Below, one piece after another: positions 19,760 through 63,954 of a stretch of DNA of 64,000 nt. The position numbers and the translations under genes are program-made. The notes below the pieces were generated by a model. That model saw nothing but the letters and a program-made list of their open reading frames with translations. It had not been told where the DNA came from and made no database searches. The stretch's first letter is position 1, and every line of letters starts with the position of its first letter. The stretch comes from Ectopseudomonas oleovorans (GTDB lineage Bacteria; Pseudomonadota; Gammaproteobacteria; Pseudomonadales; Pseudomonadaceae), in the NCBI RefSeq assembly GCF_003052605.1, contig NZ_QASO01000001.1, positions 24,425 to 88,424 on the forward strand. Reading direction: 5' to 3'.

Positions 19760-20286
19760 CCGACCCCGCTCCCCGAGAGCCGTGCCCGCCATCGGCGGCA
19801 TGGCCCATGTCCCGCATGCCCTGCGGGACGCCCAGCGCGCAACGCCTTCTCTTGTCCGTGTGCGCGTCCCGCCCGGCCGTCCCCGGCCGCGGGACCTGAA
19901 GGCAGCTTCTCCGCGAACCATGTCCGGATTTCCCGGCGCGTTCTGCTGATCCGCTTTTTTCCGCCTCTGCGAAGGGTCCCCCGATGGCTTGCCAGCCCGC
20001 GAGCCACCCGGAGACCCTTCGTGGTCAGCGGTATTCGATGCCGTGCCCAACGGCGAAAAAATGGGCTCCTTTTGTGCGCGGATGTGCGCCAGAAGATGCC
20101 GGCGCCAACCACGACATGCGCCGGGTGCGATTGCTGACAGCAGACGGTTCTAGCGACGACCGGGCCTGCCAATCAGCCCACGGGTGGTTCCGTCCTCCCG
20201 AGCCGAAGGCCGCAAGGCCTTCGGCGCCTTTCTCCTGCCGATCAATGTCCCGGCCCGCCCTGGGCCACACGAACAGGAGACCCGAC
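19760..20286 (+). other. 527-bp gap with hairpins before the methyltransferase
   Basis: No convincing gene. It contains an inverted repeat CGAAGGGTC (about 19970) / GACCCTTCG (about 20014), and CCGAAGGCC-gcaa-GGCCTTCGG at 20200-20221, a 9-bp stem closed by a GNRA tetraloop and followed by a T-rich stretch. The latter resembles the leader hairpins of the next gene cluster. The methyltransferase frame stays open through part of this gap but has no ribosome binding site there. Confidence 0.45.
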
Positions 20287-21903
20287 ATGAACCCGCAACC
20301 TCGCACCCCACGCGGTGCGCCCCAGGCCGCGCCACTGCTGTACGGCAGCGTGTGCAGCGGCATCGAGGCCGCAAGCCTCGCCTGGCAACCCCTCGGCCTC
20401 GAAGCCGCATGGTTCGCCGAGATCGAGCCGTTCCCGAGCGCCGTGCTCGCCCACCGCTATCCCCGCGTGCCCAACCTGGGCGACATGACCGCGATCGCCG
20501 GCCAGGTGCGCGCCGGCACCGTGCCGGCACCCGACATCCTGGTCGGCGGCACGCCGTGCCAGTCGTTCAGCGTTGCAGGTAGCCGTCGTGGGCTGGACGA
20601 CCCGCGCGGAGCCCTTTCCCTTGCCTATGTGGAGCTTGCCAATGCCATCGACCAAACCCGCCAACAAGACCGCCGCCCGGCGGCCACGCTCGTCTGGGAA
20701 AACGTCCCCGGCGTCCTCAACGACCGCAGCAATGCCTTCGGGCATTTCCTGGGGGCACTGGCCGGAGAAAGCCGTGCGCTCCAGCCGCCAGGGGAAAAAT
20801 GGGCGCACGCTGGTTGTGTGTCTGGACCCCGCCGCCGCATCGCCTGGCGCGTGCTCGACGCTCAATATTTCGGTGTCGCGCAACGCCGCAAGCGCGTGTT
20901 TCTTGTGGCAAGTGGTGGAGATGACTTCGATCCCGCAGAAGTACTTTTTGAGCGCGACGGCCTGCGCGGGGATTCTTGTGCGGGCTGCGCGCCGTGGCAA
21001 GAAGCTGCCCGCGCTGTTGGATCGGGTGCTGACGCAGCAGGCGCATGCGCAGGACTTGCAGGATTCGCAGGACTGAAGCAGCCCTACGGCAAGGTCACGA
21101 CGACGTTCGGATTCAGCGGCGGCATTGGCCCCGTCGATGTGGCGGCATGCCTGATGGCCGCTGGGCCCAAGCACGACATCCGCACCGAGACGTTCATGGT
21201 GCAGTCGGTCGCCGGCAGCATCGCCCACACCCTCGACACCGCCAACAACGGCAAGGGCAGCAGCGAGGACGGCACCGGCAAGGGCGTTCCGATCATCGCC
21301 TTCACCGCGCAGGGCAGCGGCGCGGATGCCACGCTCGACCTGACGCCGACGCTGCGCGCTGGCGGCCATCGCAACAGCCATGCGAACGCCGGGGTCGTGC
21401 CCGCCATCGCGTTCGCGCAGAACAACCGCGGTGAAGTGCGCTTCGAGTCGGGCCATGGCCAGGTCGCTTGCACCGTCCTGTCCAACGGCAAGCCGGGCTA
21501 CGGCGTGCCGATGGTGGCCTGCGTGTCTCTGCGCGGCCGCGAGCAGGGTCTTGCCGCCGAGCTGGCCGGCAGCGTAGCGGGCGCACTGCGCACCAGCGGC
21601 GGCGGCGCGGACAAGCCCCATGTCCTGGCTCCCGACTTCGAGGCGCATTTCCGCTACGACTGGAACGACCCTTGCCCCGGCGACTGGTCGCACTGGCGGG
21701 TGCGGCGGCTGATGCCCGTAGAGTGCGAGCGGCTGCAAGGCATGCCCGACGACTACACGCTGATCCCGTACCGCGGCAAGCCCGCCGCGGATGCGCCGCG
21801 CTACAAAGCAATCGGCAACTCCATGGCCGTCCCGTGCATGGCATGGCTGGGGCAGCGGCTCGTGCAGTGCCTGCACAAGGCGGGCTCGACCGTTTCGGAT
21901 TGA
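20287..21903 (+). CDS. C5-cytosine DNA methyltransferase
   Basis: A 538-residue Dcm-type enzyme. Motif I is LYGSVCSGIEAASLAW, motif IV is GGTPCQSFSVAG with the catalytic Cys, ENVPGVL is motif VI, and QRRKRVFLVAS motif VIII. A long low-complexity insert of about 200 residues precedes the C-terminal RRLMPVECERLQGMPDDYT and AIGNSMAVPCMAW (motifs IX-X), as in phage-encoded enzymes. No cognate restriction gene is nearby. It probably protects the ICE from host restriction. Confidence 0.9.
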   Translation: MNPQPRTPRGAPQAAPLLYGSVCSGIEAASLAWQPLGLEAAWFAEIEPFPSAVLAHRYPRVPNLGDMTAIAGQVRAGTVPAPDILVGGTPCQSFSVAGSRRGLDDPRGALSLAYVELANAIDQTRQQDRRPAATLVWENVPGVLNDRSNAFGHFLGALAGESRALQPPGEKWAHAGCVSGPRRRIAWRVLDAQYFGVAQRRKRVFLVASGGDDFDPAEVLFERDGLRGDSCAGCAPWQEAARAVGSGADAAGACAGLAGFAGLKQPYGKVTTTFGFSGGIGPVDVAACLMAAGPKHDIRTETFMVQSVAGSIAHTLDTANNGKGSSEDGTGKGVPIIAFTAQGSGADATLDLTPTLRAGGHRNSHANAGVVPAIAFAQNNRGEVRFESGHGQVACTVLSNGKPGYGVPMVACVSLRGREQGLAAELAGSVAGALRTSGGGADKPHVLAPDFEAHFRYDWNDPCPGDWSHWRVRRLMPVECERLQGMPDDYTLIPYRGKPAADAPRYKAIGNSMAVPCMAWLGQRLVQCLHKAGSTVSD

Positions 21904-53781: not shown

Positions 53782-54414
53782 TCAGGACGCTTCATCCTCC
53801 GGCTCCACCGGGCCGGGATCGGGTGCCACGCCGATGCGGTAGGTGGCAACGAACCGCGGCCAGTCCACATGGTCAACCAGGTCGATGTCCTCGACAACGC
53901 TGATCTTGGCTCCCGCACGCTCGAACAGGGCGATGCTCTTGGCGGGATAGTTGTTGCGCGACGGGTAGAGCACCCCGTCGAACAGGGGCTGGCCGTCGTT
54001 TCCAAGCATCGCATGCACCTGGGCGGACACCTGCTGCGTGTGCGTGTAGTCGCGGCTGGCCAACTGCTCCAGATTCAGGCCGAAGTAGCCCGCCATGACG
54101 CCCGGCGCCGTGAGGTCGGCCAGGAGCACGTCGTCCAGTACGCCTACTGCGCGCACCATCCGGGCGTGGACCTCCTTCAGGGCGATGGAGCGCCTCGTGT
54201 CTTCAAGCCATTGATGCTTGTGGAACACCGACTCCATCAGCGCCGTGGGCAAGTCGCGCCCCAAGTAGAGCACGCCGTAGGCCCCTGCCGGGTCATCGTA
54301 GCGATTCGTGCTGCTGCGGCCATAGTACAGCGGGCTGCCCCGATAGACGACGCGGCTCACATGCTGGAGCAGTTCACCGGCATCGATCAGGAACGAAGGC
54401 AGCTCGTGGCTCAT
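53782..54414 (-). CDS. RES-domain toxin
   Basis: A 210-residue RES-family protein: VVYRGSPLYYGRSSTNRYDD and GVLYLGRDLPTALMES are the RES motifs (Arg, Tyr, Ser positions). RES toxins degrade NAD+. It follows its antitoxin by 12 nt. Addiction role would stabilise the ICE. Confidence 0.88.
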   Translation of the reverse strand: MSHELPSFLIDAGELLQHVSRVVYRGSPLYYGRSSTNRYDDPAGAYGVLYLGRDLPTALMESVFHKHQWLEDTRRSIALKEVHARMVRAVGVLDDVLLADLTAPGVMAGYFGLNLEQLASRDYTHTQQVSAQVHAMLGNDGQPLFDGVLYPSRNNYPAKSIALFERAGAKISVVEDIDLVDHVDWPRFVATYRIGVAPDPGPVEPEDEAS

Positions 54415-54426
54415 GGCGATCTCGCT

Positions 54427-55053
54427 TCAATGCACCTGGACGCCCAGCACGTTGAACACGGCCTCGGCCACGTCATCGATCGTGCCATGCGTCACCGCAT
54501 CCACCGGCGAGCGACCACCCAAGCCTTCGAGCGGTTCGGACAGCGCGCGGTAGATCGTCCAGTGGTCGATGCCCTCGACCTCCTGGAGCACGGTTTGGGT
54601 CAACTGCTGCTTCACCGGGTCGAGCTGCCAGTCGGGCAGCTTCTGGCCGCGCGGCCCCACGTTCAGCGCCAGCAGCCGACGGGCGAGGATGTCCTTGTAG
54701 ATTTGCTGGCGCGACTTGTCCGCCAGCTTGGCGAATTCGGCAGGCGGCAGGTTGTCCGGCTGGTTGAAGGCTTCCAGCAGCGCGGCGCGGCCTCTCTGGA
54801 CGTCGGTTTCAGCCGGTGCCCAGCGCGTGTCGGCGCGCAGCGCGGCCGCCTTGCGCTGCAAGGCCTGCGCCACCGTTTCACCTTCCAGGTTGGCGGGCAG
54901 CTTCACCGCCTCCACGCGCTCGTGGATGAACGCCTGCAACTCGGCCGCGAACGCCGGAGCATCCCGGATTTCGACGGTATCCGCGAAGCGGCGCACATCC
55001 TCCACCGTGACGCGCGGTAGACGGTCGGCAATGAATTCGATGGCAGTGGGCAT
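54427..55053 (-). CDS. Xre/MbcA-like antitoxin (DUF2384-type C-terminus)
   Basis: A 208-residue antitoxin. The middle has a helix-turn-helix (LPPAEFAKLADKSRQQIYKD); the C-terminal LGGRSPVDAVTHGTIDDVAE is the toxin-binding MbcA/ParS-like part. Start at ATG 55053 (GGGAG 6 nt upstream) is preferred over ATG 55059. The operator with TTTGTCGCC repeats lies upstream. Confidence 0.82.
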   Translation of the reverse strand: MPTAIEFIADRLPRVTVEDVRRFADTVEIRDAPAFAAELQAFIHERVEAVKLPANLEGETVAQALQRKAAALRADTRWAPAETDVQRGRAALLEAFNQPDNLPPAEFAKLADKSRQQIYKDILARRLLALNVGPRGQKLPDWQLDPVKQQLTQTVLQEVEGIDHWTIYRALSEPLEGLGGRSPVDAVTHGTIDDVAEAVFNVLGVQVH

Positions 55054-55062
55054 GATCATCTC

Positions 55063-55144: not shown

Positions 55145-55368
55145 CGGGGTAGCGTCTTGGGAGCATAGGCCGGGGCCAGCGCCGGGTAGCCGTCCAATCC
55201 ATTAATGCGGGTTCCCCATTGACGCTGGAGCCGCAGCCCAGGCCCCGCTATACCGAAACGGTTAAAGGCCAAAGGGTCGAAACGGCAAGGGAATGGGGTG
55301 CAAGGGGAAAGGCCCTACCTCGAAAAGGCCAAAAGGCCTCCCGCCCGGCCCGCCATCAGGACACCGAC
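55145..55368 (+). other. oriT candidate region upstream of the relaxase
   Basis: A non-coding gap with direct repeats CGAAACGG at 55254-55261 and 55278-55285 and about five AAAGGCC copies between 55264 and 55340. In ICEclc an oriT lies just upstream of the relaxase gene. No nick site can be identified by eye. Confidence 0.45.
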
Positions 55369-57219
55369 ATGCTCTCCCTGTTCCAGCGAAAACGGCCCCC
55401 GGTCGCTGCCGCGCCGTCGCCAGCACCCGCCACCGACCTCCCGAAAGGGTTGATGCGGCCGGAGTCGGCCGCATCGCTGCTGGCCACCCCGCGCCGGCAG
55501 AAGCTGATGGAACACATCTGGCAGCGCACCTCGCTCTCGCGCAGGCAGTTCGCCACCCTCTACCGCGCGCCACTGGAGCGCTACGCCGAGCTGGTCCAGG
55601 TCTTCCCGGCCTCCGAAGCGCACCACCACGCATACCCGGGCGGCATGCTCGACCATGGCCTGGAAATCGTCGCCTACAGCCTGAAGCTGCGACAGTCCCA
55701 TCTGCTGCCCATCGGCGCCAGCCCCGAAGACCAGGCGGCGCAGGCCGAAGCCTGGACCGCGGCCGTCGCCTATGCCGCGCTGCTCCATGACATCGGCAAG
55801 GTGGCGGTCGATCTGCACGTCGAGCTGGCCGACGGCAGCACCTGGCACCCGTGGCACGGCCCCCTGCGTCAGCCGTACCGCTTCCGCTACAACCCCGACC
55901 GCGAGTACCGGCTCCACAGCGCCGCAACAGGCTTGCTCTACCGGCAACTGCTCGACCGCGATCTGCTGGACTGGCTCAGCGGCTATCCGTATCTCTGGGC
56001 GCCGCTGCTCTACGTCCTGGCCGGGCAGTACGAGCACGCCGGGGTGCTGGGCGAGCTGGTCGTGCAGGCCGATCGCGCCTCCGTCGCCCAGGAGCTGGGC
56101 GGCGATCCCGCGCGCGCCATGGCCGCGCCCAAGCACGCGCTGCAGCGCAAGCTGCTCGACGGGCTGCGCTACCTGCTCAAGGAAGAGTTGCGCCTGAACC
56201 AGGCGGAAGCCTCGGATGGCTGGCTCACGGATGATGCGCTGTGGCTGGTGAGCAAGACGGTCTCGGACAAGCTCCGCGCGCACCTGCTGTCCCAGGGCGT
56301 CGATGGCATCCCTGCGAACAACACCGCGGTGTTCAACGTTCTCCAGGACCACGGCATGTTGCAGCCGACGCCCGATGGCAAGGCGATCTGGCGCGCGACC
56401 GTGACCAGCTCCATCGGCTGGTCCCACTCGTTCACCCTGTTACGGCTGGCACCTGCGCTGATTTGGGAGCCTAGCGAGCGGCCGGCACCGTTCGCCGGGA
56501 CGGTGGCGATCGACACGACGCCGGCCGACAAAGATGCCGATGCTTCGGTGCAATCGCCGGCAATCGCGGCAATGCCTCCTGCCGAAGATCAGCAGTCCGC
56601 TCCGTGGACGGACGCCAGCGACGGCGCTGCCACGCTTCAACCGACCGCTGCCCAGGCCGTGCCCGATGTCATGGAAGACATGCTCGCGATGGTGGGAATG
56701 GGTGATTCGCCTGCCGTACGGCACGATGCAGAAGCCGCCTCGGGCAAAGCGCCTGCCGCAGGCCTCGAAACTCTTGCACCGCCCCTAGCTAACGCTTTGC
56801 CTCCGTCACCGGCGCCCGCGCTCACAGCCGCGCAGCCATCGGGCGAACACTTCATGGCATGGCTGCAACAGGGCGTCGCCTCGCGGCGGCTCATCATCAA
56901 CGACGCCAAGGCGCTCGTGCACACTGTGGGCGACACCGCGTACCTGGTCAGCCCCGGCGTCTTCCAGCGCTACGCGCAGGAGCACCCGCAAGTTGGCACG
57001 CTGGCGAAGCAGGAAAGCCAGCAGGATTGGCAGTGGGTTCAGAAGCGCTTCGAGAAGCTGGGCTTGCACCGAAAGCACTCCAATGGGCTGAACATTTGGA
57101 CCTGCGAAGTCACCGGCCCGAGGAAAACGCGGCGCTTGCATGGCTATTTGCTCGAAGAGCCGTCTCGGCTGCTACATGACGTCCCTCCTAACAATCCCTA
57201 CTTGTCTCTCCACCATTGA
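55369..57219 (+). CDS. traI: MobH-family relaxase (TraI)
   Basis: A 616-residue TraI_2/MobH relaxase. HHHAYPGGMLDHGLEIVAYS and ALLHDIGKVAVDLHVEL carry the HHH and HD signatures. A Pro/Ala-rich linker leads to a C-terminal winged-helix domain (SGEHFMAWLQQGVASRRLII). ATG 55369 fits the family start; the longer frame covers the oriT candidate. Nicks oriT and is passed to TraD. Confidence 0.92.
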   Translation: MLSLFQRKRPPVAAAPSPAPATDLPKGLMRPESAASLLATPRRQKLMEHIWQRTSLSRRQFATLYRAPLERYAELVQVFPASEAHHHAYPGGMLDHGLEIVAYSLKLRQSHLLPIGASPEDQAAQAEAWTAAVAYAALLHDIGKVAVDLHVELADGSTWHPWHGPLRQPYRFRYNPDREYRLHSAATGLLYRQLLDRDLLDWLSGYPYLWAPLLYVLAGQYEHAGVLGELVVQADRASVAQELGGDPARAMAAPKHALQRKLLDGLRYLLKEELRLNQAEASDGWLTDDALWLVSKTVSDKLRAHLLSQGVDGIPANNTAVFNVLQDHGMLQPTPDGKAIWRATVTSSIGWSHSFTLLRLAPALIWEPSERPAPFAGTVAIDTTPADKDADASVQSPAIAAMPPAEDQQSAPWTDASDGAATLQPTAAQAVPDVMEDMLAMVGMGDSPAVRHDAEAASGKAPAAGLETLAPPLANALPPSPAPALTAAQPSGEHFMAWLQQGVASRRLIINDAKALVHTVGDTAYLVSPGVFQRYAQEHPQVGTLAKQESQQDWQWVQKRFEKLGLHRKHSNGLNIWTCEVTGPRKTRRLHGYLLEEPSRLLHDVPPNNPYLSLHH

Positions 57220-57276: not shown

Positions 57277-58479
57277 TCAAAGCCACCTGAAGAAATCACA
57301 GACTGCCTGCCGTTGTGCCAACGTGTCGCGCTCACCCAGCGCCATTACCTCCTGGGTGAAAGGAGCCTCGAACAACAGGTAGCTCGCCAGAGCGGAACCG
57401 CTCAGGTCACTGCTCGCGCTGGACGAACCCACGCCGCGCAACAGCGCGCGCACCGTTCGCGGCAGGTGCTTCTGGTGCCGAGCCGCGATGTCGTCAATGC
57501 GCTCGCTTGGCGCGATCACCAGCGCCTTCACCGACCGCAGTGAGGTGGCCAGGCGCTGCCCCAGCGTCATCATTTCCAGGGTACGGTTGACACGCTCCAT
57601 ACGCTCGATGTCCACCGCGAGCGAATCGAGAAAGACGTTCGACAGCACGTGCCCACCAACTTGAGCCAGTGTCGGGTAACCGCCATCACGCACGATTCGC
57701 CCACGCGGTTCATGCAGCCGACCGACACCAACGATGAGCATACGCTGCGCACCGAGATGGATCGCCGGCGAGATCGGTGAGGTTTGCCGCATCGAGCCGT
57801 CGCCGTACCAGCCGGCGTGCTCCGCATGCTCGATACGCTGTGCTGGAAATACGAAGGGGATCGCCGCCGAAGCGAGCAGGTGCTCCAGCCCCAGTCGCAT
57901 GGGTACGGCCAGCCGCTGCGAGCGTTCGTAGCCCGTCATGTCGCCGGTGGCCTCAAAGAAGGTGAGGTGTTCGCCGCTGGTGTAGCTGGACGCGCCTAGC
58001 GCCAGCGCGTGCAGATGACGCTCGGCCAGCATGCGCGGTAGCAGTTCCAGCGGCGCCCAATGTCGCAGCAGTTCGGCCAAAGGTTCATTGTCCAGCAGCG
58101 AACGTGGCCCTTCTTTGCGCCAGCGCGCCAACATCCAGCCTACCGAAATCGCGCTCAGCCACTGTGCACCGCTGCGGGCGATACCAAGCGCATCGGTGCG
58201 ATACACCTGATCAGCGCGAAAGTTTCGCCAAACTGCGGCGATTGTCTCCACGCCCGCATCAAAGGAGTCTGCTCGGCAGGCTAAAGCGGCGGCATTGATT
58301 GCGCCTGCCGAAGTGCCACATAGGATGCCAAATGGGTTGGGCGCGCCGTCGCCCAGACGTTCGCGACGCAACTTCACCAGGCCCTGCAACACGCCAACCT
58401 GGTAGGCGGCGCGCGCACCGCCTCCGGACAGAACCAGCGCCGTCTTTTCAACGCTAGTGACTGGCTTAATGTGTGCCAT
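57277..58479 (-). CDS. Patatin-like phospholipase
   Basis: A 400-residue patatin: LVLSGGGARAAYQVGVL has the oxyanion-hole glycines (19-21), GTSAG carries the nucleophile Ser57, and YGDGSMR provides the Asp. Hydrolyses acyl esters of phospholipids. Start at ATG 58479; a GTG at 58506 overlapping the upstream stop (GTGA) is an alternative. First member (distal in reading order) of the cargo lipid cluster. Confidence 0.88.
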   Translation of the reverse strand: MAHIKPVTSVEKTALVLSGGGARAAYQVGVLQGLVKLRRERLGDGAPNPFGILCGTSAGAINAAALACRADSFDAGVETIAAVWRNFRADQVYRTDALGIARSGAQWLSAISVGWMLARWRKEGPRSLLDNEPLAELLRHWAPLELLPRMLAERHLHALALGASSYTSGEHLTFFEATGDMTGYERSQRLAVPMRLGLEHLLASAAIPFVFPAQRIEHAEHAGWYGDGSMRQTSPISPAIHLGAQRMLIVGVGRLHEPRGRIVRDGGYPTLAQVGGHVLSNVFLDSLAVDIERMERVNRTLEMMTLGQRLATSLRSVKALVIAPSERIDDIAARHQKHLPRTVRALLRGVGSSSASSDLSGSALASYLLFEAPFTQEVMALGERDTLAQRQAVCDFFRWL

Positions 58480-58502
58480 CGCAGGCCCCCATGGACACTG
58501 AC

Positions 58503-59564
58503 TCACTCATAGACGAGCATGATGCTGGCGTAGTTGACCGACGGCGGGTTCGGCATGTCAGGCGCGGAAAACTCGGCACCGCGCCATGCCATCAGATATG
58601 TGATCGTCCATCGGCCCATGCCGTAACTGAAGCCTGTGCGCAACTCGCCAACCAGGTGCTTGGAACGGACGTGGGAAGCGCCTCGGCGTGGCCGCCCGTC
58701 GATCACTTCGTTCCAGGCCAATGCCCTGATATCGACGCCTATAAAGCCGAAGTAGCGCGCCGCATTGGAGGCACGCTGACAGCCTCCCACCTCGGACACG
58801 CGAAGAATGTGGCTGACAACGCCTGGCGTCGCAATCTCACAGCCGAAGCTGCCATACCGCAAGGTAGCCCCAGCATGCGCATAGCCTTGAAGCGTGCCCA
58901 GCATGCCGCCGGCGTGCGCGACAAAATCGGCATGGTCATCGCCCCAGCGTCTGCGCTCTAGAACACGAATCGCGGCCGCAACGCGGTTGTGAATCTGGTT
59001 GTCCCAGCCCTTGGGACTGTCAGACCCCGTAACACGATGAACCCGCTCCTGCGCCTGACGCGCCAGCGAAGCATCGCCGACGAAACCGACGCCCATTTCG
59101 ATACGCCTTGCCGCCAGTGCATCCCCACGCCGACCAATAGCCTCCCAACTGCGCCCTACGTACAAGACCCCTGCCCAAGGCCGATCATCGGGTTGCGGCT
59201 CCGCAACCTGAATGGATGCTGGCGTGTAGATTTCCTGAGCGATAAACCAGGAATGCAGCCCGTGTCCGCCAGCATCGACGGTCACACACGGATCGCCGAT
59301 TCCCGAACCTGCGATCCTGTCAACCAATTCGTCGATCGGCGTCGAATGCCGTAACAACTTGCCAAAAGTCTCAATTCGAATCCCGCTGGTATAGCCCCCG
59401 TCGATGTTGCGAGAGGTCATCAGGTCGTTGTCGAACCTCACAAGATGGGCCTGCGTACCAACCGCACACATGCTGAACGCCTCAGCGGGCAGGGAACAAA
59501 GAACCGCCGCCGCAATAACGACGATGGCCCAAGCAGTTCGGCGTCGGAGCGAATTCAAGGGCAT
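58503..59564 (-). CDS. LpxR-like lipid A 3'-O-deacylase (DUF2219)
   Basis: A 353-residue outer-membrane protein with signal peptide (to about residue 29). RFDNDLMTSRNIDGGYTSGI and PDDRPWAGVLYVGRSW are the LpxR/DUF2219 signatures, including the Asn-Asp pair near residues 46-47. In Salmonella and Vibrio LpxR removes the 3'-acyl chains of lipid A. Overlaps the patatin GTG alternative start. Confidence 0.85.
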   Translation of the reverse strand: MPLNSLRRRTAWAIVVIAAAVLCSLPAEAFSMCAVGTQAHLVRFDNDLMTSRNIDGGYTSGIRIETFGKLLRHSTPIDELVDRIAGSGIGDPCVTVDAGGHGLHSWFIAQEIYTPASIQVAEPQPDDRPWAGVLYVGRSWEAIGRRGDALAARRIEMGVGFVGDASLARQAQERVHRVTGSDSPKGWDNQIHNRVAAAIRVLERRRWGDDHADFVAHAGGMLGTLQGYAHAGATLRYGSFGCEIATPGVVSHILRVSEVGGCQRASNAARYFGFIGVDIRALAWNEVIDGRPRRGASHVRSKHLVGELRTGFSYGMGRWTITYLMAWRGAEFSAPDMPNPPSVNYASIMLVYE

Positions 59565-59592
59565 CGGCCTGAACTAATGGTGACCATCGCGT

Positions 59593-60237
59593 TCACCATG
59601 GGAGAGAGAGACGCAAGAACATGAAGTTCTCACCCGGGTTTGGCTTCTTGATGCCGGCATTCGAGAAATGCTGTACACGCAAGGAAACCTCATAGGCCTT
59701 TTCAGGCCCAAAGCGGTAGCCCACTGCCAGCACTTCCGTGAACTGGAAGGCCGTGCTGAATCGACGCTCCCCTGAGTTGTAGAGGCCGTCCGTTACGCTT
59801 CCTCCTAGGCCTGCCTCAAAGAACCAAGGAGATTGCGGCCCTGCGGGCTGGTAACGCCAAGCGATCAGGGCCCCAAGCTGGGAATAGCCGCCTGTTGTGT
59901 TATCAGCATGGTGCGACCTCCAATGGCTGCCCCATAGATCCCAATGCAAGGTCAGCGGACCCGCATCGCGCCCGATGCCTTTCAAGAGGTTGGAAGGCAC
60001 CATCACGCCCACGTTCATTGCATGCGTGGCATCGCCCTGCAGAGAAGTTGCGCCAGCCTGTACGTACATCTTCGCGTCGGCAAAACGACCTTGAGCTGCC
60101 GACACGGATGGCAGAGCACCCAGAGCCAAGCCCAACAGAATGCACATACCGCGCCCTGCGGCCATAACGCCAGGCGCGTCCTGGGCGCACGCCATTGATG
60201 TGGCCCGACTTCTCACCACGTCTGGACACGATGTCAT
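59593..60237 (-). CDS. PagL-like lipid A deacylase
   Basis: A protein of about 214 residues. The C-terminus has VQHFSNAGIKKPNPGENFMF, with His and Ser two apart and Glu 11 on, matching the PagL catalytic arrangement. A signal peptide lies before AQGRF. Start uncertain: ATG 60237 overlaps the phasin stop (ATGA), but ATG 60195 or 60165 would place the signal peptide nearer the N-terminus. PagL removes the 3-O-acyl chain of lipid A. Confidence 0.82.
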   Translation of the reverse strand: MTSCPDVVRSRATSMACAQDAPGVMAAGRGMCILLGLALGALPSVSAAQGRFADAKMYVQAGATSLQGDATHAMNVGVMVPSNLLKGIGRDAGPLTLHWDLWGSHWRSHHADNTTGGYSQLGALIAWRYQPAGPQSPWFFEAGLGGSVTDGLYNSGERRFSTAFQFTEVLAVGYRFGPEKAYEVSLRVQHFSNAGIKKPNPGENFMFLRLSLPW

Positions 60238-60707
60238 CTGGACGAGCGGCCCTTCTTCTCCGTAGCTACATGGGCACCTGGCCACATCTGCGAGAACTGA
60301 TTTAGATAGGCCGTCCATTGAGGGGGTGAGCCCGACGACTTGATGGCGTCGGCCACGATCCGCGACACTTGCTGATTCCAGTCAATGAAGGCTTCCGCCA
60401 GTTCGCCCGTGACCTTGGCCGGATTACCCGAATCGGACTGCAGCACCTTCTGAATTGCGGCTTGCCGCTTCTCCCAGCGGCGGCGGGTGAGTTCGAGCTG
60501 AACCGCGATCAATGCCGGAACGTCGGTAACTGCCATCAGCGCCTGAATTTCCTCGCCTGACTCGGCGAGTGCGGCTAATGTCAATTGCTGGCTATGGCCC
60601 ACACCCTGCGACACAGCCTGCTGAGACAACTCGACGAGACGTTGAAGGTATTGCGCATTGGCCTGAAAAAGTTGCACTACGACATTTCCGTTAGTTTCAT
60701 GGCTCAT
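60234..60707 (-). CDS. Phasin family protein
   Basis: A 157-residue amphipathic helical protein matching phasins (FQANAQYLQRLVELSQQAVS, WEKRQAAIQKVL). Phasins coat polyhydroxyalkanoate granules. ATG 60707 with AGGAGAG overlaps the upstream stop (ATGA). Its presence among lipid-acting enzymes is notable. Confidence 0.83.
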   Translation of the reverse strand: MSHETNGNVVVQLFQANAQYLQRLVELSQQAVSQGVGHSQQLTLAALAESGEEIQALMAVTDVPALIAVQLELTRRRWEKRQAAIQKVLQSDSGNPAKVTGELAEAFIDWNQQVSRIVADAIKSSGSPPQWTAYLNQFSQMWPGAHVATEKKGRSSR

Positions 60708-63073
60708 GATGACTCTCCTGAAAGAAGGAAAGGCCGGACGATGGTGCTAAGCGAAGACAGCATGCGCGCATGTTCGGCCTGCACCGCTTGGCAACGCCCG
60801 CCGGCCAAACCGGGCGATGCCAAGGTTGATTTCGCCAAGGCATAGCCCTGAGTCTGGTTGCTTCGGATGGCCACATCGGAGAAGTCGTAGTCGCGCGAGG
60901 GCACCTCGTCAGAAGGTGGCCTGCGCACGAAGCGCGTGATCTGCGTGGGTACACCGTTGCCCATGAGTTGGATGTAGCGCGGCAGCCTCCTTATGCGATC
61001 GCGTTGATCTGGACCAATCTCTTGCATTAGGTGGCCGATCAAATCGCGGTAGGCTTCTGCCATCTCTCGCACATGAAGATCGCTGCGCACGCGCTCGGCG
61101 TAGATGATCTCGTCGCGTCTTGCCAACACTTCAGTGATGTTGGTGGGCAGATCCCTCTGGCTTGCGAATAAATCAACAATGAATACCCGCTTCCCATCCG
61201 GCCCACAGCGGTCGATCACCAAGTCCAGTGGCGAGTTGCTGACAATTCCCCCGTCCCAGTACGGTTTGCCATCGATAAATGTCCAGGAAAATCCAGGTGG
61301 CAGGCTTCCGCTGGCAATGATGTGATCGGCGGTGAAATCGTCAACATAGCTGTCGAAGGTCTCGAACTCCGCAGTGAGGACGTTGACGGCACCGACCAGC
61401 AGTCGCACGGGGCTGGTCTTGAGTGCAGGAAAGTCCACGTACTGAGCCAGCAAGTGCCGCATGGGCGAGGTGTCATAGAAGCTGGTCCAGTTCCACGGCG
61501 GTTGCACAAACGCCTCCCATGGGGCGTCCATCGGCGGAATCCAACGGGGCCGGAAGAACTTCTCCACGCCGAAGCCCACGATCTGCGCTGCGGAGATCGC
61601 ATGTCGCATCGGTTCAGTCGGAGCCATCGGCGACGCCACTTGAATGTCGGACCAGAACGCTTCGAGCGCTTCGGTGGCATGCTCGGGATGGCTGGCGATG
61701 ATCGCTCCATTGAACGCGCCGATTGAGATGCCAGCGACGATGTCCGGAAATATCCGCTGCTCCTCAAGCGCTTTGACGACGCCACACTCAAAGGCACCCA
61801 ACGCGCCACCGCCCTGAAGGATCAGCACGTTCTGCATCGGCAGCGATTGGAGCGCGAACGTGGGGTTCTCCAAGTGGCGCTTGTCTTTGCGAAGGTTGGT
61901 TCGATATCGGATTAGGCTTTCTGCGGCGCGTATCTCACCCGCTGGACGGCCGAGCGTGAAGACCGCACGGGGGATATCGTTGTTGAGGTAGTAGAGGGAA
62001 AACGAACGATCCTGCAGCGATCCCTGGGAGATGCTCTCGTCCGCGTGCGAAGGGTCTCCCACGACATTGAAGCCCACGTCTCCAATCTCGCAGAAAAAGC
62101 AGGAGACCTCGTCGTAGCGCCGCCGGCGTCCGGCCATGTTGCGCGCGGCAAGTTGCCCCTGCTTGATCGCGTTGTCCCAGTGCTCGATATGCCGTCGCCG
62201 CGCAAACACGGGGTCGTAGAAGTACGCCACGTCGCCGGCTGCGTAAACATTCTGCGTGTTGGTCTGCAAACGATCATCGACGACGACATAGCCATTTTCC
62301 AACTGGATATCGGTGTCTCGCAGAAACGCCGTAGCGGGCTCAACACCGATGCAAACGATCGCTAGGTCGCAAGGCACTCTGGTGCCGTTGGCAGTCTCCA
62401 CTTCCCCGACCGTTTTTCGCCCGTGGAAGGCGACCACTGACTCAGTGGTCATGATCGATATGCCGTGAGCAGACTCGACCTGGCGGCGAATGAAGTCCGA
62501 AAGCACCGCCGATTCGAGATGTCTCAGAATCCGATCCTGGGCTTCGATAACGACAACCGCTATGCCAAGCTCCCTCATCGAGAGGGCAACTTCCATTCCA
62601 AGAAAGCCACCACCAACAATGACCACACGCCTGGCTCCTGCCGCAGCCTGTCGGATGGCTTCTGAATCAGCCTGGGTTCTTAGCGTATAGACACCGCCAA
62701 GCGATGCCCCAGGGACGGCAAGGGCCCTCGGAATCGAGCCCGTGGCAATCAGTAGCTTGCCGTAGTGAATCACCGAGCGGCTTGACGTTCGGACGCATTG
62801 CCTCGTCGTGTCGATACCGACAGCCCTGGTGTTCAAAGCCACTTCGATTCGGTGTTCGCGATAGAAATCTTCAGGATGGACGAGAATTCGTGTTTCGCTT
62901 ACCGATCCCAGCAGGTATCTTTTGGAAAGGAAGGGCCTGTGGTAAGGCAACTTCGGCTCTGCCGACAGAATCTGGACGGAACCCGCTACACCCTCCTGGC
63001 GCAAAGTCTCTGCGGCCTGAGCGCTAGCGAGGCCGCCGCCGATAAGAAGGAAGTCGATTTCCTGCAGCGACAC
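60704..63073 (-). CDS. Fusion: FAD-dependent oxidoreductase + patatin-like hydrolase
   Basis: A 789-residue fusion. Residues 1-400: ferredoxin/rubredoxin-reductase type with FAD motif DFLLIGGGLASAQAA, NAD motif VVIVGGGFLGMEVAL and VYAAGDVAYF. Residues 413-789: patatin with VLILQGGGALGAFECGV, GISIG (Ser450) and YWDGGIVSNSPLDL (catalytic Asp), followed by a DUF3734-like tail. No ribosome binding site precedes Met413, so the fusion is likely genuine. Overlaps phasin by 4 nt. Confidence 0.88.
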   Translation of the reverse strand: MSLQEIDFLLIGGGLASAQAAETLRQEGVAGSVQILSAEPKLPYHRPFLSKRYLLGSVSETRILVHPEDFYREHRIEVALNTRAVGIDTTRQCVRTSSRSVIHYGKLLIATGSIPRALAVPGASLGGVYTLRTQADSEAIRQAAAGARRVVIVGGGFLGMEVALSMRELGIAVVVIEAQDRILRHLESAVLSDFIRRQVESAHGISIMTTESVVAFHGRKTVGEVETANGTRVPCDLAIVCIGVEPATAFLRDTDIQLENGYVVVDDRLQTNTQNVYAAGDVAYFYDPVFARRRHIEHWDNAIKQGQLAARNMAGRRRRYDEVSCFFCEIGDVGFNVVGDPSHADESISQGSLQDRSFSLYYLNNDIPRAVFTLGRPAGEIRAAESLIRYRTNLRKDKRHLENPTFALQSLPMQNVLILQGGGALGAFECGVVKALEEQRIFPDIVAGISIGAFNGAIIASHPEHATEALEAFWSDIQVASPMAPTEPMRHAISAAQIVGFGVEKFFRPRWIPPMDAPWEAFVQPPWNWTSFYDTSPMRHLLAQYVDFPALKTSPVRLLVGAVNVLTAEFETFDSYVDDFTADHIIASGSLPPGFSWTFIDGKPYWDGGIVSNSPLDLVIDRCGPDGKRVFIVDLFASQRDLPTNITEVLARRDEIIYAERVRSDLHVREMAEAYRDLIGHLMQEIGPDQRDRIRRLPRYIQLMGNGVPTQITRFVRRPPSDEVPSRDYDFSDVAIRSNQTQGYALAKSTLASPGLAGGRCQAVQAEHARMLSSLSTIVRPFLLSGESS

Positions 63074-63117: not shown

Positions 63118-63420
63118 TCATTCGCCCATCTTGGAACCAGCCTTGAGTTCTTTTACGAACTGATATAGGTGCGGCAGAAATGAAGAGAACAGCGGGTTGT
63201 CCTTGTTATCTAGCAGGACGCCTCCAAGCAGTTTCAGCCCGACACCAAGGGCCGCTGCTGATTCCTTGTCGCTGAAATCTCCTCTTTCACGAAGCCACGT
63301 TACGACGGCGATGATGTCGTCGTGGTTCATGACTTCAAATTGCAGCGGCTTGTTGTGAACAGGGCCGCCTCTGGAATCGGAAATGTGCTCCACGGTCAAG
63401 CGATAGCGATGTCTCTTCAT
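63118..63420 (-). CDS. DUF3861 protein
   Basis: A 100-residue protein starting at ATG 63420: MKRHRYRLTVEHISDSRGGP is the DUF3861 signature. Function unknown. An upstream ATG (63435) in frame has no ribosome binding site. It precedes the oxidoreductase-patatin gene by 45 nt and may be cotranscribed. Confidence 0.78.
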   Translation of the reverse strand: MKRHRYRLTVEHISDSRGGPVHNKPLQFEVMNHDDIIAVVTWLRERGDFSDKESAAALGVGLKLLGGVLLDNKDNPLFSSFLPHLYQFVKELKAGSKMGE

Positions 63421-63567
63421 GTCACATAGTCCCATCTGTTAGTAATTGAAGCTGGGTTTCATAGGCCGACATGGCTGACCCTTGGTTTCCGCTCTCCATG
63501 GGTGCCTCGGACCCGGGTGCGCACTTGCACACCCGTTCCTTGAATTACAGTTGCAGTCTCGCCGGCA
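63421..63567. other. Gap between DUF3861 and DUF4148 genes
   Basis: About 150 bp. I see no gene or clear terminator; it must hold the promoter of the DUF3861-led operon on the minus strand. Confidence 0.35.
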
Positions 63568-63954
63568 TCAAGGCTCATTCACAACATGGGTGCCTTCCTG
63601 GCGAGCTTGCTCAAGTTCGCGCAACACTTCGGCACGTGTTCTCCCCGGACCTGTATCGCGCGGGAATTCGCCCGGATACTCGCCCTCATGGAGATACAGC
63701 AAGCCCTGCTCACGAGCTTCCTGAAGCTCTTGCAGCACCTCTGCGCGCGTTTTGCTGCGGCCTGTTGTCGGCATCTCAACTGGATAAACATCACCTTCCA
63801 TCAGCAGACCTTGGCGGCGTGCCTCCTCCAGTTCAGCCCTCACTTGTTCGCGGGTTAGTGACTGACCTCCTGTGGCCTGGTTGCTGGAGCCTGCCCAACA
63901 TAGTGACGAGCTCGCCAGAATGACAAAACCGATTAGCGCTGTTTGTGCTTTCAT
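63568..63954 (-). CDS. DUF4148 exported protein with three repeats
   Basis: A 128-residue exported protein with a signal peptide (MKAQTALIGFVILASSSLCW) and three repeats of the form TR-x-E/Q-V-x-x-E-L-x-x-A-R (LTREQVRAELEEARRQGLL, KTRAEVLQELQEAREQGLL, RTRAEVLRELEQARQEG). DUF4148 family, common in Burkholderiales and Pseudomonas; function unknown. ATG 63954 with GGAGG. Confidence 0.83.
   Translation of the reverse strand: MKAQTALIGFVILASSSLCWAGSSNQATGGQSLTREQVRAELEEARRQGLLMEGDVYPVEMPTTGRSKTRAEVLQELQEAREQGLLYLHEGEYPGEFPRDTGPGRTRAEVLRELEQARQEGTHVVNEP

Follow-up and report, generated by a model that had tools for sequence, protein, structure and literature searches.

Which functions are joined in a cargo in which two lipid A deacylase genes stand beside two patatin domains and a phasin? 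This question is raised by a stretch of 64,000 nucleotides of Ectopseudomonas oleovorans DNA (hereafter the window; C1:24425-88424, contig NZ_QASO01000001.1 of assembly GCF_003052605.1). The genome comprises 5.2 Mb in 143 contigs, and the contig ends 4.2 kb beyond the window. Five minus-strand open reading frames (ORFs) span positions 57277-63073 and belong to an integrative and conjugative element (ICE) of the PFGI-1 class. On balance, with a confidence slightly better than even, we read this cargo as consisting of two functional halves, one for the turnover of polyhydroxybutyrate (PHB) and the other for envelope remodelling, which would help the cell to withstand starvation and hydrophobic or membrane stress. 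The five ORFs, listed in the direction of reading, are as follows:

60704..63073, minus strand: a fusion protein of 789 aa with a ferredoxin-reductase-like domain for flavin adenine dinucleotide (FAD) and nicotinamide adenine dinucleotide (NAD) at residues ~1-411, followed by a patatin/DUF3734 region at ~412-757; Pfam PF07992, PF01734 and PF12536.
60234..60707, minus strand: a Phasin_2-type protein of 157 aa; PF09361, 27.7 bits (cut-off 24.9).
59593..60195 (long ORF up to 60318), minus strand: a PagL-type lipid A 3-O-deacylase; PF09411, 103.5 bits (cut-off 23).
58503..59564, minus strand: an LpxR-type lipid A 3'-O-deacylase; PF09982, 206.1 bits (cut-off 26).
57277..58506, minus strand: a second patatin (patatin 2) of 409 aa; PF01734, 96.8 bits (cut-off 27.7).

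The two lipid A deacylase families and the two patatin domains that a first-pass annotation of this DNA had reported are present, all above the curated Pfam cut-offs. The ORF at 60704-63073 is considered a fusion because Pfam finds Pyr_redox_2 (212.9 bits) and then patatin (106 bits) with DUF3734 (65.3 bits) in one reading frame. Its first ~410 residues, which the first-pass annotation did not mention, form a Pyr_redox_2 or ferredoxin-reductase-like FAD domain. The best solved relatives of this half are 3lxd, 3fg2 and putidaredoxin reductase, and BphA4 is also similar. The structure model, built with 34 homologues, had a mean pLDDT of 82 and a pTM of 0.80, with values below 50 at residues 638-670 and 755-789, that is, in parts of the patatin half. 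All 50 matches listed in the fold search were reductase-type proteins, and none informs the patatin half. In the alignment of the window protein with those of 33 loci, GGG at 421-423, Ser450 in the motif GISIG and Asp607-Gly608 were invariant in the 34 fusions. The patatin hydrolase signature, which consists of a GGG oxyanion loop, a G-x-S-x-G serine and an Asp-Gly pair, is present in the fusion and in patatin 2.

All five genes recur in the same order in Variovorax sp. WDL1, where the DNA is 85% identical. On the same WDL1 contig lies a relaxase gene with 82% identity to that of the window, and ~11 kb of other genes separate it from the cargo. The end of a DUF3861 gene is seen upstream of the fusion, where the contig stops. 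The ratio of nonsynonymous to synonymous substitution rates (dN/dS) between the window and WDL1 was 0.10 for patatin 2, 0.18 for LpxR, 0.20 for PagL, 0.15 for the phasin and 0.13 for the fusion, at a dS of 0.45-0.52 and with no stops in the five genes. As WDL1 keeps the order, has no stops and shows dN/dS values of 0.10-0.20, we conclude from this comparison that the five genes are intact, have been under purifying selection since the copies diverged and do not stand in a chance order. Among 149 genomes of the genus, the full-length fusion was found in one, its own, the next match covering residues 9-392 (among the matches listed, with at most six candidates per genome); therefore, the cluster is probably foreign to the genus. 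No near DNA match of the cluster was found among plasmids.

The distribution of the fusion was examined by a scan of GTDB contigs, which gave 43 loci. Thirty-seven of them (L003-L039) match the fusion over nearly its whole length and fall in the alpha- and betaproteobacteria, the relative at L024 being in two pieces. In the remainder, L040 is cut by the contig end after ~410 residues and five loci (L041-L045) match the reductase half only. In addition, 5 of 1801 plasmid records match the fusion at a coverage of at least 80%. The neighbours were tallied in L003-L040 and these five plasmid records (43 loci), using phmmer against reference neighbours of the PHB type, namely 3-hydroxybutyrate dehydrogenase (BDH), acetoacetate decarboxylase (ADC), PhaC, PHB depolymerases (PhaZ-type) and phasins. 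A PHB-type gene was found within 5 kb of the fusion in 22 of the 43 loci, with BDH in 14, ADC in 9, PhaC in 3, PHB depolymerases in 5 and phasins of three types in 13. After redundancy was removed at 90% fusion identity, 33 clusters with one representative each were left, and a PHB-type gene lay within 1 kb of the fusion in 16 of the 33 representatives (17 if any cluster member counts).

Part of the fusion family is thus linked to PHB-type genes, and this linkage is close. The representatives hold 25 such genes in 63 kb (3.97 per 10 kb) within 1 kb of the fusion and 5 in 235 kb (0.21 per 10 kb) at 5-10 kb, which is an approximately 19-fold difference in density, and 26 of the 29 PHB-type genes within 2.5 kb share the strand of the fusion. 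The count over all 43 loci, near-duplicates included, gave 35 genes in 81 kb versus 6 in 284 kb, and 35 of 40 on the same strand. When the names of the neighbours were checked, every gene tested as 3-hydroxybutyrate dehydrogenase (nine, from the 14 loci with a BDH-type gene), acetoacetate decarboxylase (four, from nine loci) or PhaZ (three, from five loci) scored above the cut-off. All three synthase genes exceeded that of PhaC_N, and the single PHB synthase scanned against NCBIfam remained below the class I cut-off (542.6 vs 622.65). The NCBI Prokaryotic Genome Annotation Pipeline (PGAP) concurs, placing the fusion with a phasin, acetoacetate decarboxylase and 3-hydroxybutyrate dehydrogenase in the Sphingopyxis and Tardibacter plasmids and next to phaZ in the Cupriavidus plasmid. 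The Xanthobacter plasmid pXAUT01 has an export system at the fusion instead of PHB genes; the Variovorax PDNC026 record carries no annotation. At L018, which was not counted, the neighbour of the fusion is an acetoacetyl-CoA reductase according to NCBIfam (381.5 bits, cut-off 302.1), which would therefore add to the PHB side. At the near-identical loci L066 and L011 (Sphingopyxis indica), an outer-membrane phospholipase A (OMPLA)-type gene lies near the fusion, between the genes of the phasin and acetoacetate decarboxylase.

A related phasin gene follows the fusion in five of the 43 loci (L003, L004, L007, L008 and L038). The phasin of L003 is above the Pfam cut-off and those of L007, L008 and L038 are below it, with L004 outside the scan; that of L038, the WDL1 copy, reaches 24.3 bits, just under 24.9. 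For the patatin half, the comparison was made with PhaZh1 of Haloferax mediterranei. Two reports (PMC11205408, PMC4823750) describe it as a patatin-type polyhydroxyalkanoate (PHA) depolymerase on granules, encoded near bdhA, that degraded PHB in vitro. The PhaZh1 gene on pHME505 was recognised by its described neighbours, and its identity is thus deduced from them. The patatin half of the fusion is 27.6% identical to PhaZh1 over 286 aa (E 1e-20), while its match to patatin 2 has an E value of 2.5e-4 or 2.3e-8, depending on the direction; the fusion patatin is closer to PhaZh1 than to patatin 2. PhaZh1 and patatin 2 match each other at E 4e-7 to 1e-10 depending on the direction, which is weaker than the match of PhaZh1 to the fusion. 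The fusion was not assigned to the PhaZh1-type depolymerases because no 3-hydroxybutyrate dehydrogenase gene adjoins it in the window cluster. At L182 and L183 (Azospirillum and Ancylobacter), PhaZh1-like patatins are found in a row with genes for a GntP permease and for resistance-nodulation-division (RND) efflux.

The other three genes point to the envelope. In the alignment of the PagL-type protein with P. aeruginosa PagL (2erv), HFS of the query stands opposite HYS, so that His-x-Ser is kept. The catalytic residues of PagL are His126/Ser128 and Glu140; the Glu of the query sits one column off the catalytic Glu in this ungapped alignment, and a shift of one residue is required. The LpxR-type protein aligned to 3fid with an E value of 8e-9, with a His opposite chain residue 122 (counted from the alignment), the position of the catalytic His122. 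Judged by eye, signal-peptide-like N termini are present on PagL and LpxR and absent from the patatins and the phasin. By these similarities, PagL should remove the 3-O and LpxR the 3'-O acyl chain of lipid A. Patatin 2 is ~41% identical to a P. aeruginosa patatin whose gene adjoins that of the lipid A lauroyl acyltransferase. Such an acyltransferase gene adjoins the patatin 2 relatives in all 29 best-scoring other loci, which come from one genus and are not independent events, and the synteny in the genus is minC-lpxL-patatin. Of 398 genomes of the genus, 386 already have a PagL, and a patatin 2 relative is present in 91 of 99; as far as gene content tells, the cargo therefore duplicates functions that are core to the genus and adds LpxR. 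Among the 12 fusion-carrier genomes tested, two had LpxR-type genes.

We also looked at the neighbours of PagL and at the genes upstream of the fusion. PagL relatives were found on 19 plasmid records, and 11 of their neighbourhoods were viewed. An efflux system stands directly beside PagL in four of these (Acidovorax RND, LM8 outer-membrane factor, tbtM and tbtABM), and a gene of the major facilitator superfamily (MFS) lies 0.9-1.9 kb away in three; in the other four, one of which is a stretch cut on one side, no efflux gene was annotated in view. The genes annotated tbtM or tbtABM, which PagL follows, are on Pseudomonas and Stutzerimonas plasmids (L107, L108). In genome G269, a patatin 2 relative near an RND system is split into two ORFs (L093:11021-12269), which seems to reflect either a damaged copy or an error in the sequence. 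PagL of P. putida is a member of the ColR regulon, and the effect of ColR on its targets is strengthened by phenol (PMC2865465). Because efflux genes neighbour PagL and because of this link between ColR and phenol, we regard tolerance of hydrophobic stress, with moderate confidence, as the likeliest trait under selection.

Upstream of the fusion, the run of genes on the same strand continues in the window with:

63118..63435, minus strand: a DUF3861 protein; PF12977, 100.5 bits.
63568..63954, minus strand: a DUF4148 protein; PF13663, 90 bits.

Just outside the window, genes for an HlyD-type protein (HlyD_3, 73.6 bits), an MFS protein and an outer-membrane factor follow, to which we give the labels EmrA, EmrB and NodT. 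The gaps are 44 bases between the fusion and DUF3861, 132 between DUF3861 and DUF4148, 113 between DUF4148 and HlyD and 7 between HlyD and MFS; then, there is a 4-base overlap. Within the cluster itself, overlaps of 4 bases occur at the fusion/phasin and LpxR/patatin 2 junctions, and PagL and LpxR are separated by 28 bases. An 85-base overlap of the phasin and PagL genes requires that PagL begin at the earliest ATG, 60318. The signal-peptide-like stretch of PagL (judged by eye) follows the ATGs at 60195 and 60165, which are downstream of the phasin stop. PagL thus probably starts at 60195 or 60165, and the overlap is probably not real. The earlier statement that most starts and stops overlap is therefore correct for two of the four junctions, whereas PagL/LpxR is gapped and phasin/PagL is probably an artefact of the start chosen. 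Promoter-like sites were at the shuffle mean and terminator-like sites ~1 standard deviation above it; because these values are near the shuffle level, the single transcript that we infer for the cluster is to be regarded as provisional.

The same genome contains a second ICE-type relaxase gene on contig C75, 86% identical to that of the window. Genes for a PHB_acc regulator, PagL, a phasin, DUF3141, pta/ack-type proteins, a PhaC-type synthase and an exporter lie roughly 8-30 kb from it, the exporter being of the ABC type and downstream (L091/L092). Here too, PagL follows a phasin, the two being 17 bases apart by ORF coordinates. The C75 PagL is 29% identical to that of the window, and the two phasins have no significant similarity. 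Two pairings of phasin and PagL that look independent in one genome are suggestive of a link, without being proof. As a general rule, the adjacency of phasin and PagL was rejected, since no phasin was found near PagL in any of 38 other PagL loci (flanks of ~1.5 kb, a few shorter; phasins detectable only with the reference phasins). The host has PHA synthase-type genes of its own, of which C143 carries two and C75 one. A report on P. extremaustralis describes a horizontally acquired PHB island (phbFPX/phbRBAC) whose PhbX and membrane-fusion protein are on granules (PMC4041789). By its size and order, the DUF3141 gene of C75 may be PhbX.

From these sequences, we infer the enzyme activities, cell locations and stress role set out here. 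The fusion and the phasin would act in the cytosol on PHB-type polyhydroxyalkanoate granules, which the phasin would coat or be recruited to. The patatin domain of the fusion may hydrolyse ester bonds of the granule, whether of the polymer, of oligomers or of surface lipid, much as PhaZh1 does. The FAD/NADH reductase fused to this domain may couple to, or sense, a redox state altered by PHB turnover. Meanwhile, PagL, LpxR and patatin 2 would remodel the envelope: the two deacylases would strip the 3-O and 3'-O acyl chains from lipid A, and patatin 2 would act on membrane lipid from the cell interior. Together with the pump of HlyD, MFS and outer-membrane-factor proteins encoded directly upstream, the trait most likely to be selected would be tolerance of hydrophobic or membrane stress and of starvation. 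The (R)-3-hydroxyacyl-type chains of lipid A are chemically monomers of the PHA type. It is conceivable, though we regard it as quite improbable, that such chains freed by PagL and LpxR are stored or burnt by the phasin and patatin-reductase half, which would make the cargo one redox-controlled circuit spread by conjugation.

Several observations weigh against a PHB and stress-tolerance function. The phasin reported by the first-pass annotation is supported by a domain above the Pfam cut-off, but only weakly (27.7 vs 24.9 bits), and it has no NCBIfam match. BDH, ADC, PhaC and PhaZ are absent from the window cluster itself. Seventeen of the 33 representatives have none of the tested PHB gene types within 5 kb, and ten of these 17 are flanked by 7 kb or more in each direction; contig ends thus account for only part of the negatives. 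Three of the 16 positives (L007, L008 and L038) have a phasin-like gene below the cut-off as their only PHB-type neighbour, and L038 is the WDL1 copy. Since the reference PHB genes were drawn from recurrent neighbours of the same loci, only the distance control is independent. With regard to PhaZh1, the mobilisation of PHA in vivo was not significantly altered when phaZh1 was knocked out (PMC11205408). None of the three PhaZh1-like plasmid patatins viewed has a BDH gene annotated within 3 kb, and the proposal that such patatins always stand beside BDH was rejected on this ground. Finally, the efflux systems are directly beside PagL in only the four of the 11 viewed plasmid neighbourhoods named above.

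The cargo could also be a hotspot at the relaxase in which the fusion-phasin pair and the PagL-LpxR-patatin 2 set, unrelated to each other, have gathered with no joint function. The fusion-phasin pair indeed occurs without PagL and LpxR in L003, L007 and L008 (L004 is cut within the phasin gene), the 11 kb of other genes between relaxase and cargo in WDL1 mean that the site takes insertions, and the absence of a phasin from the 38 other PagL loci agrees with such a gathering. However, the order is fixed, there are 4-base overlaps and all five genes show purifying selection at a dS of ~0.5, which speaks for more than co-residence, as does the second phasin followed by PagL in this genome, on C75, where a further ICE-type relaxase gene is located. 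We consider such a hotspot a possible but unlikely explanation. More doubtful is the pathway proposed in the first-pass annotation, in which the cluster as a whole releases and handles acyl chains of outer-membrane lipids and alters lipopolysaccharide (LPS) immunogenicity, phage receptors or mating. It accommodates two lipid A deacylases and two patatins in one conserved block whose genes are all intact and selected, the lipid A acyltransferase gene beside all 29 patatin 2 relatives examined and the OMPLA-type phospholipase near the fusion at two near-identical Sphingopyxis loci. The part in which the first patatin and the phasin handle outer-membrane acyl chains is not supported: outside WDL1, the fusion keeps the company of PHB-type genes (16 of 33 representatives), and PagL and LpxR are at the fusion in 1 of 43 genome loci, that of WDL1 (tblastn; contig ends truncate many of the loci). 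As only the deacylases have signal-peptide-like N termini by eye, a single pathway would also need an unseen import step. A change in immunogenicity or phage receptors through PagL is made less likely by its near-universal presence in the genus, where an extra copy would alter little, while LpxR might still bring such a change.

We also considered that the patatins of the cluster might serve phage defence of the CBASS type or as similar lipase effectors, which appears very improbable. Patatin 2 is weakly similar to the models of a CBASS lipase (33.9 bits) and of the anti-phage protein DS2_1 (28.5 bits), and the phospholipase-effector models of PADLOC gave at best 30.9 bits (E 4e-8) for patatin 2 and 27.5 bits for the fusion. 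The NCBIfam cut-offs are 200 and 400 bits, far above the scores of patatin 2, and the Pfam assignments of the cluster include no sensor or cyclase domain. Because a patatin 2 relative is present in nearly all genus genomes examined, these weak matches suggest general similarity among patatins. The patatins were thus rejected as defence effectors. The two-halved reading of PHB turnover and envelope remodelling remains the one we prefer.

The mobile setting of the cargo, which the first-pass annotation had proposed, is supported. The gene that faces the cluster tail to tail, with 57 bases from its stop to the end of patatin 2, is:

55219..57219, plus strand: a MobH/TraI relaxase; TIGR03760, 292 bits (cut-off 161), and MobH NF041494, 365 bits (cut-off 200).

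The ICE of the PFGI-1 class is supported because models of this class for the relaxase, TraD, TraC and ParB, among others, exceed their cut-offs (TIGR03760, TIGR03754, TIGR03744, TIGR03764 and TIGR03755). The initial 20 kb of the contig yielded no tRNA. At 53782-55059, after the transfer genes of the ICE and before its relaxase, lie a RES-domain ORF and, preceding it on the same strand, an ORF of 210 aa that has no match in Pfam; the two look like a toxin-antitoxin pair of the RES type. Also inside the ICE, a 639-aa ORF at 19984-21903, barely above the cut-off for cytosine DNA methyltransferases, adjoins topoisomerase III.

The families of the parts are known, and the fusion and the combination look new: no description of either was found in the open-licence literature, including for a phasin with a lipid A 3-O-deacylase or for DUF3734. 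The fusion family is a candidate for a PHB-linked, little-studied enzyme with a built-in NADH reductase. If our interpretation is correct, the turnover of a storage polymer and the remodelling of outer-membrane lipids would travel together between bacteria, which could help to explain the stress tolerance of soil bacteria.

Compared with known systems, the fusion shares the whole FAD, NAD and C-terminal domains with ferredoxin reductases of the putidaredoxin/BphA4/TodA type, to whose top solved members it has an identity of 27-31% and a TM score of 0.88-0.94 (target-normalised). It differs from them by the fused patatin, and none of the 25 NCBIfam models listed, out of 76, reaches its cut-off. 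Among the four annotated plasmid records viewed, an oxygenase set adjoins the fusion only on the Sphingopyxis and Tardibacter plasmids. The adjoining genes at L066 and L069 are those of anthranilate dioxygenase and the chlorocatechol genes, and the reductase half could serve such oxygenases there. With PhaZh1, the fusion has the patatin fold in common, and the association with PHB genes is common to PhaZh1 and part of the fusion family; however, PhaZh1 is a single domain of 321 aa with neither a DUF3734 match nor a FAD reductase half, and the fusion has both. The window proteins share family models and aligned active-site residues with PagL of Pseudomonas and LpxR of Salmonella, whereas here both are found together on an ICE, adjoining a phasin and patatins. 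The PHB island of P. extremaustralis (PMC4041789) carries a phasin, a synthase and a membrane-fusion protein, and a similar set is present on C75 of the genome studied here. That island makes PHB, whereas the window cluster has no synthase and carries lipid A deacylases in addition.

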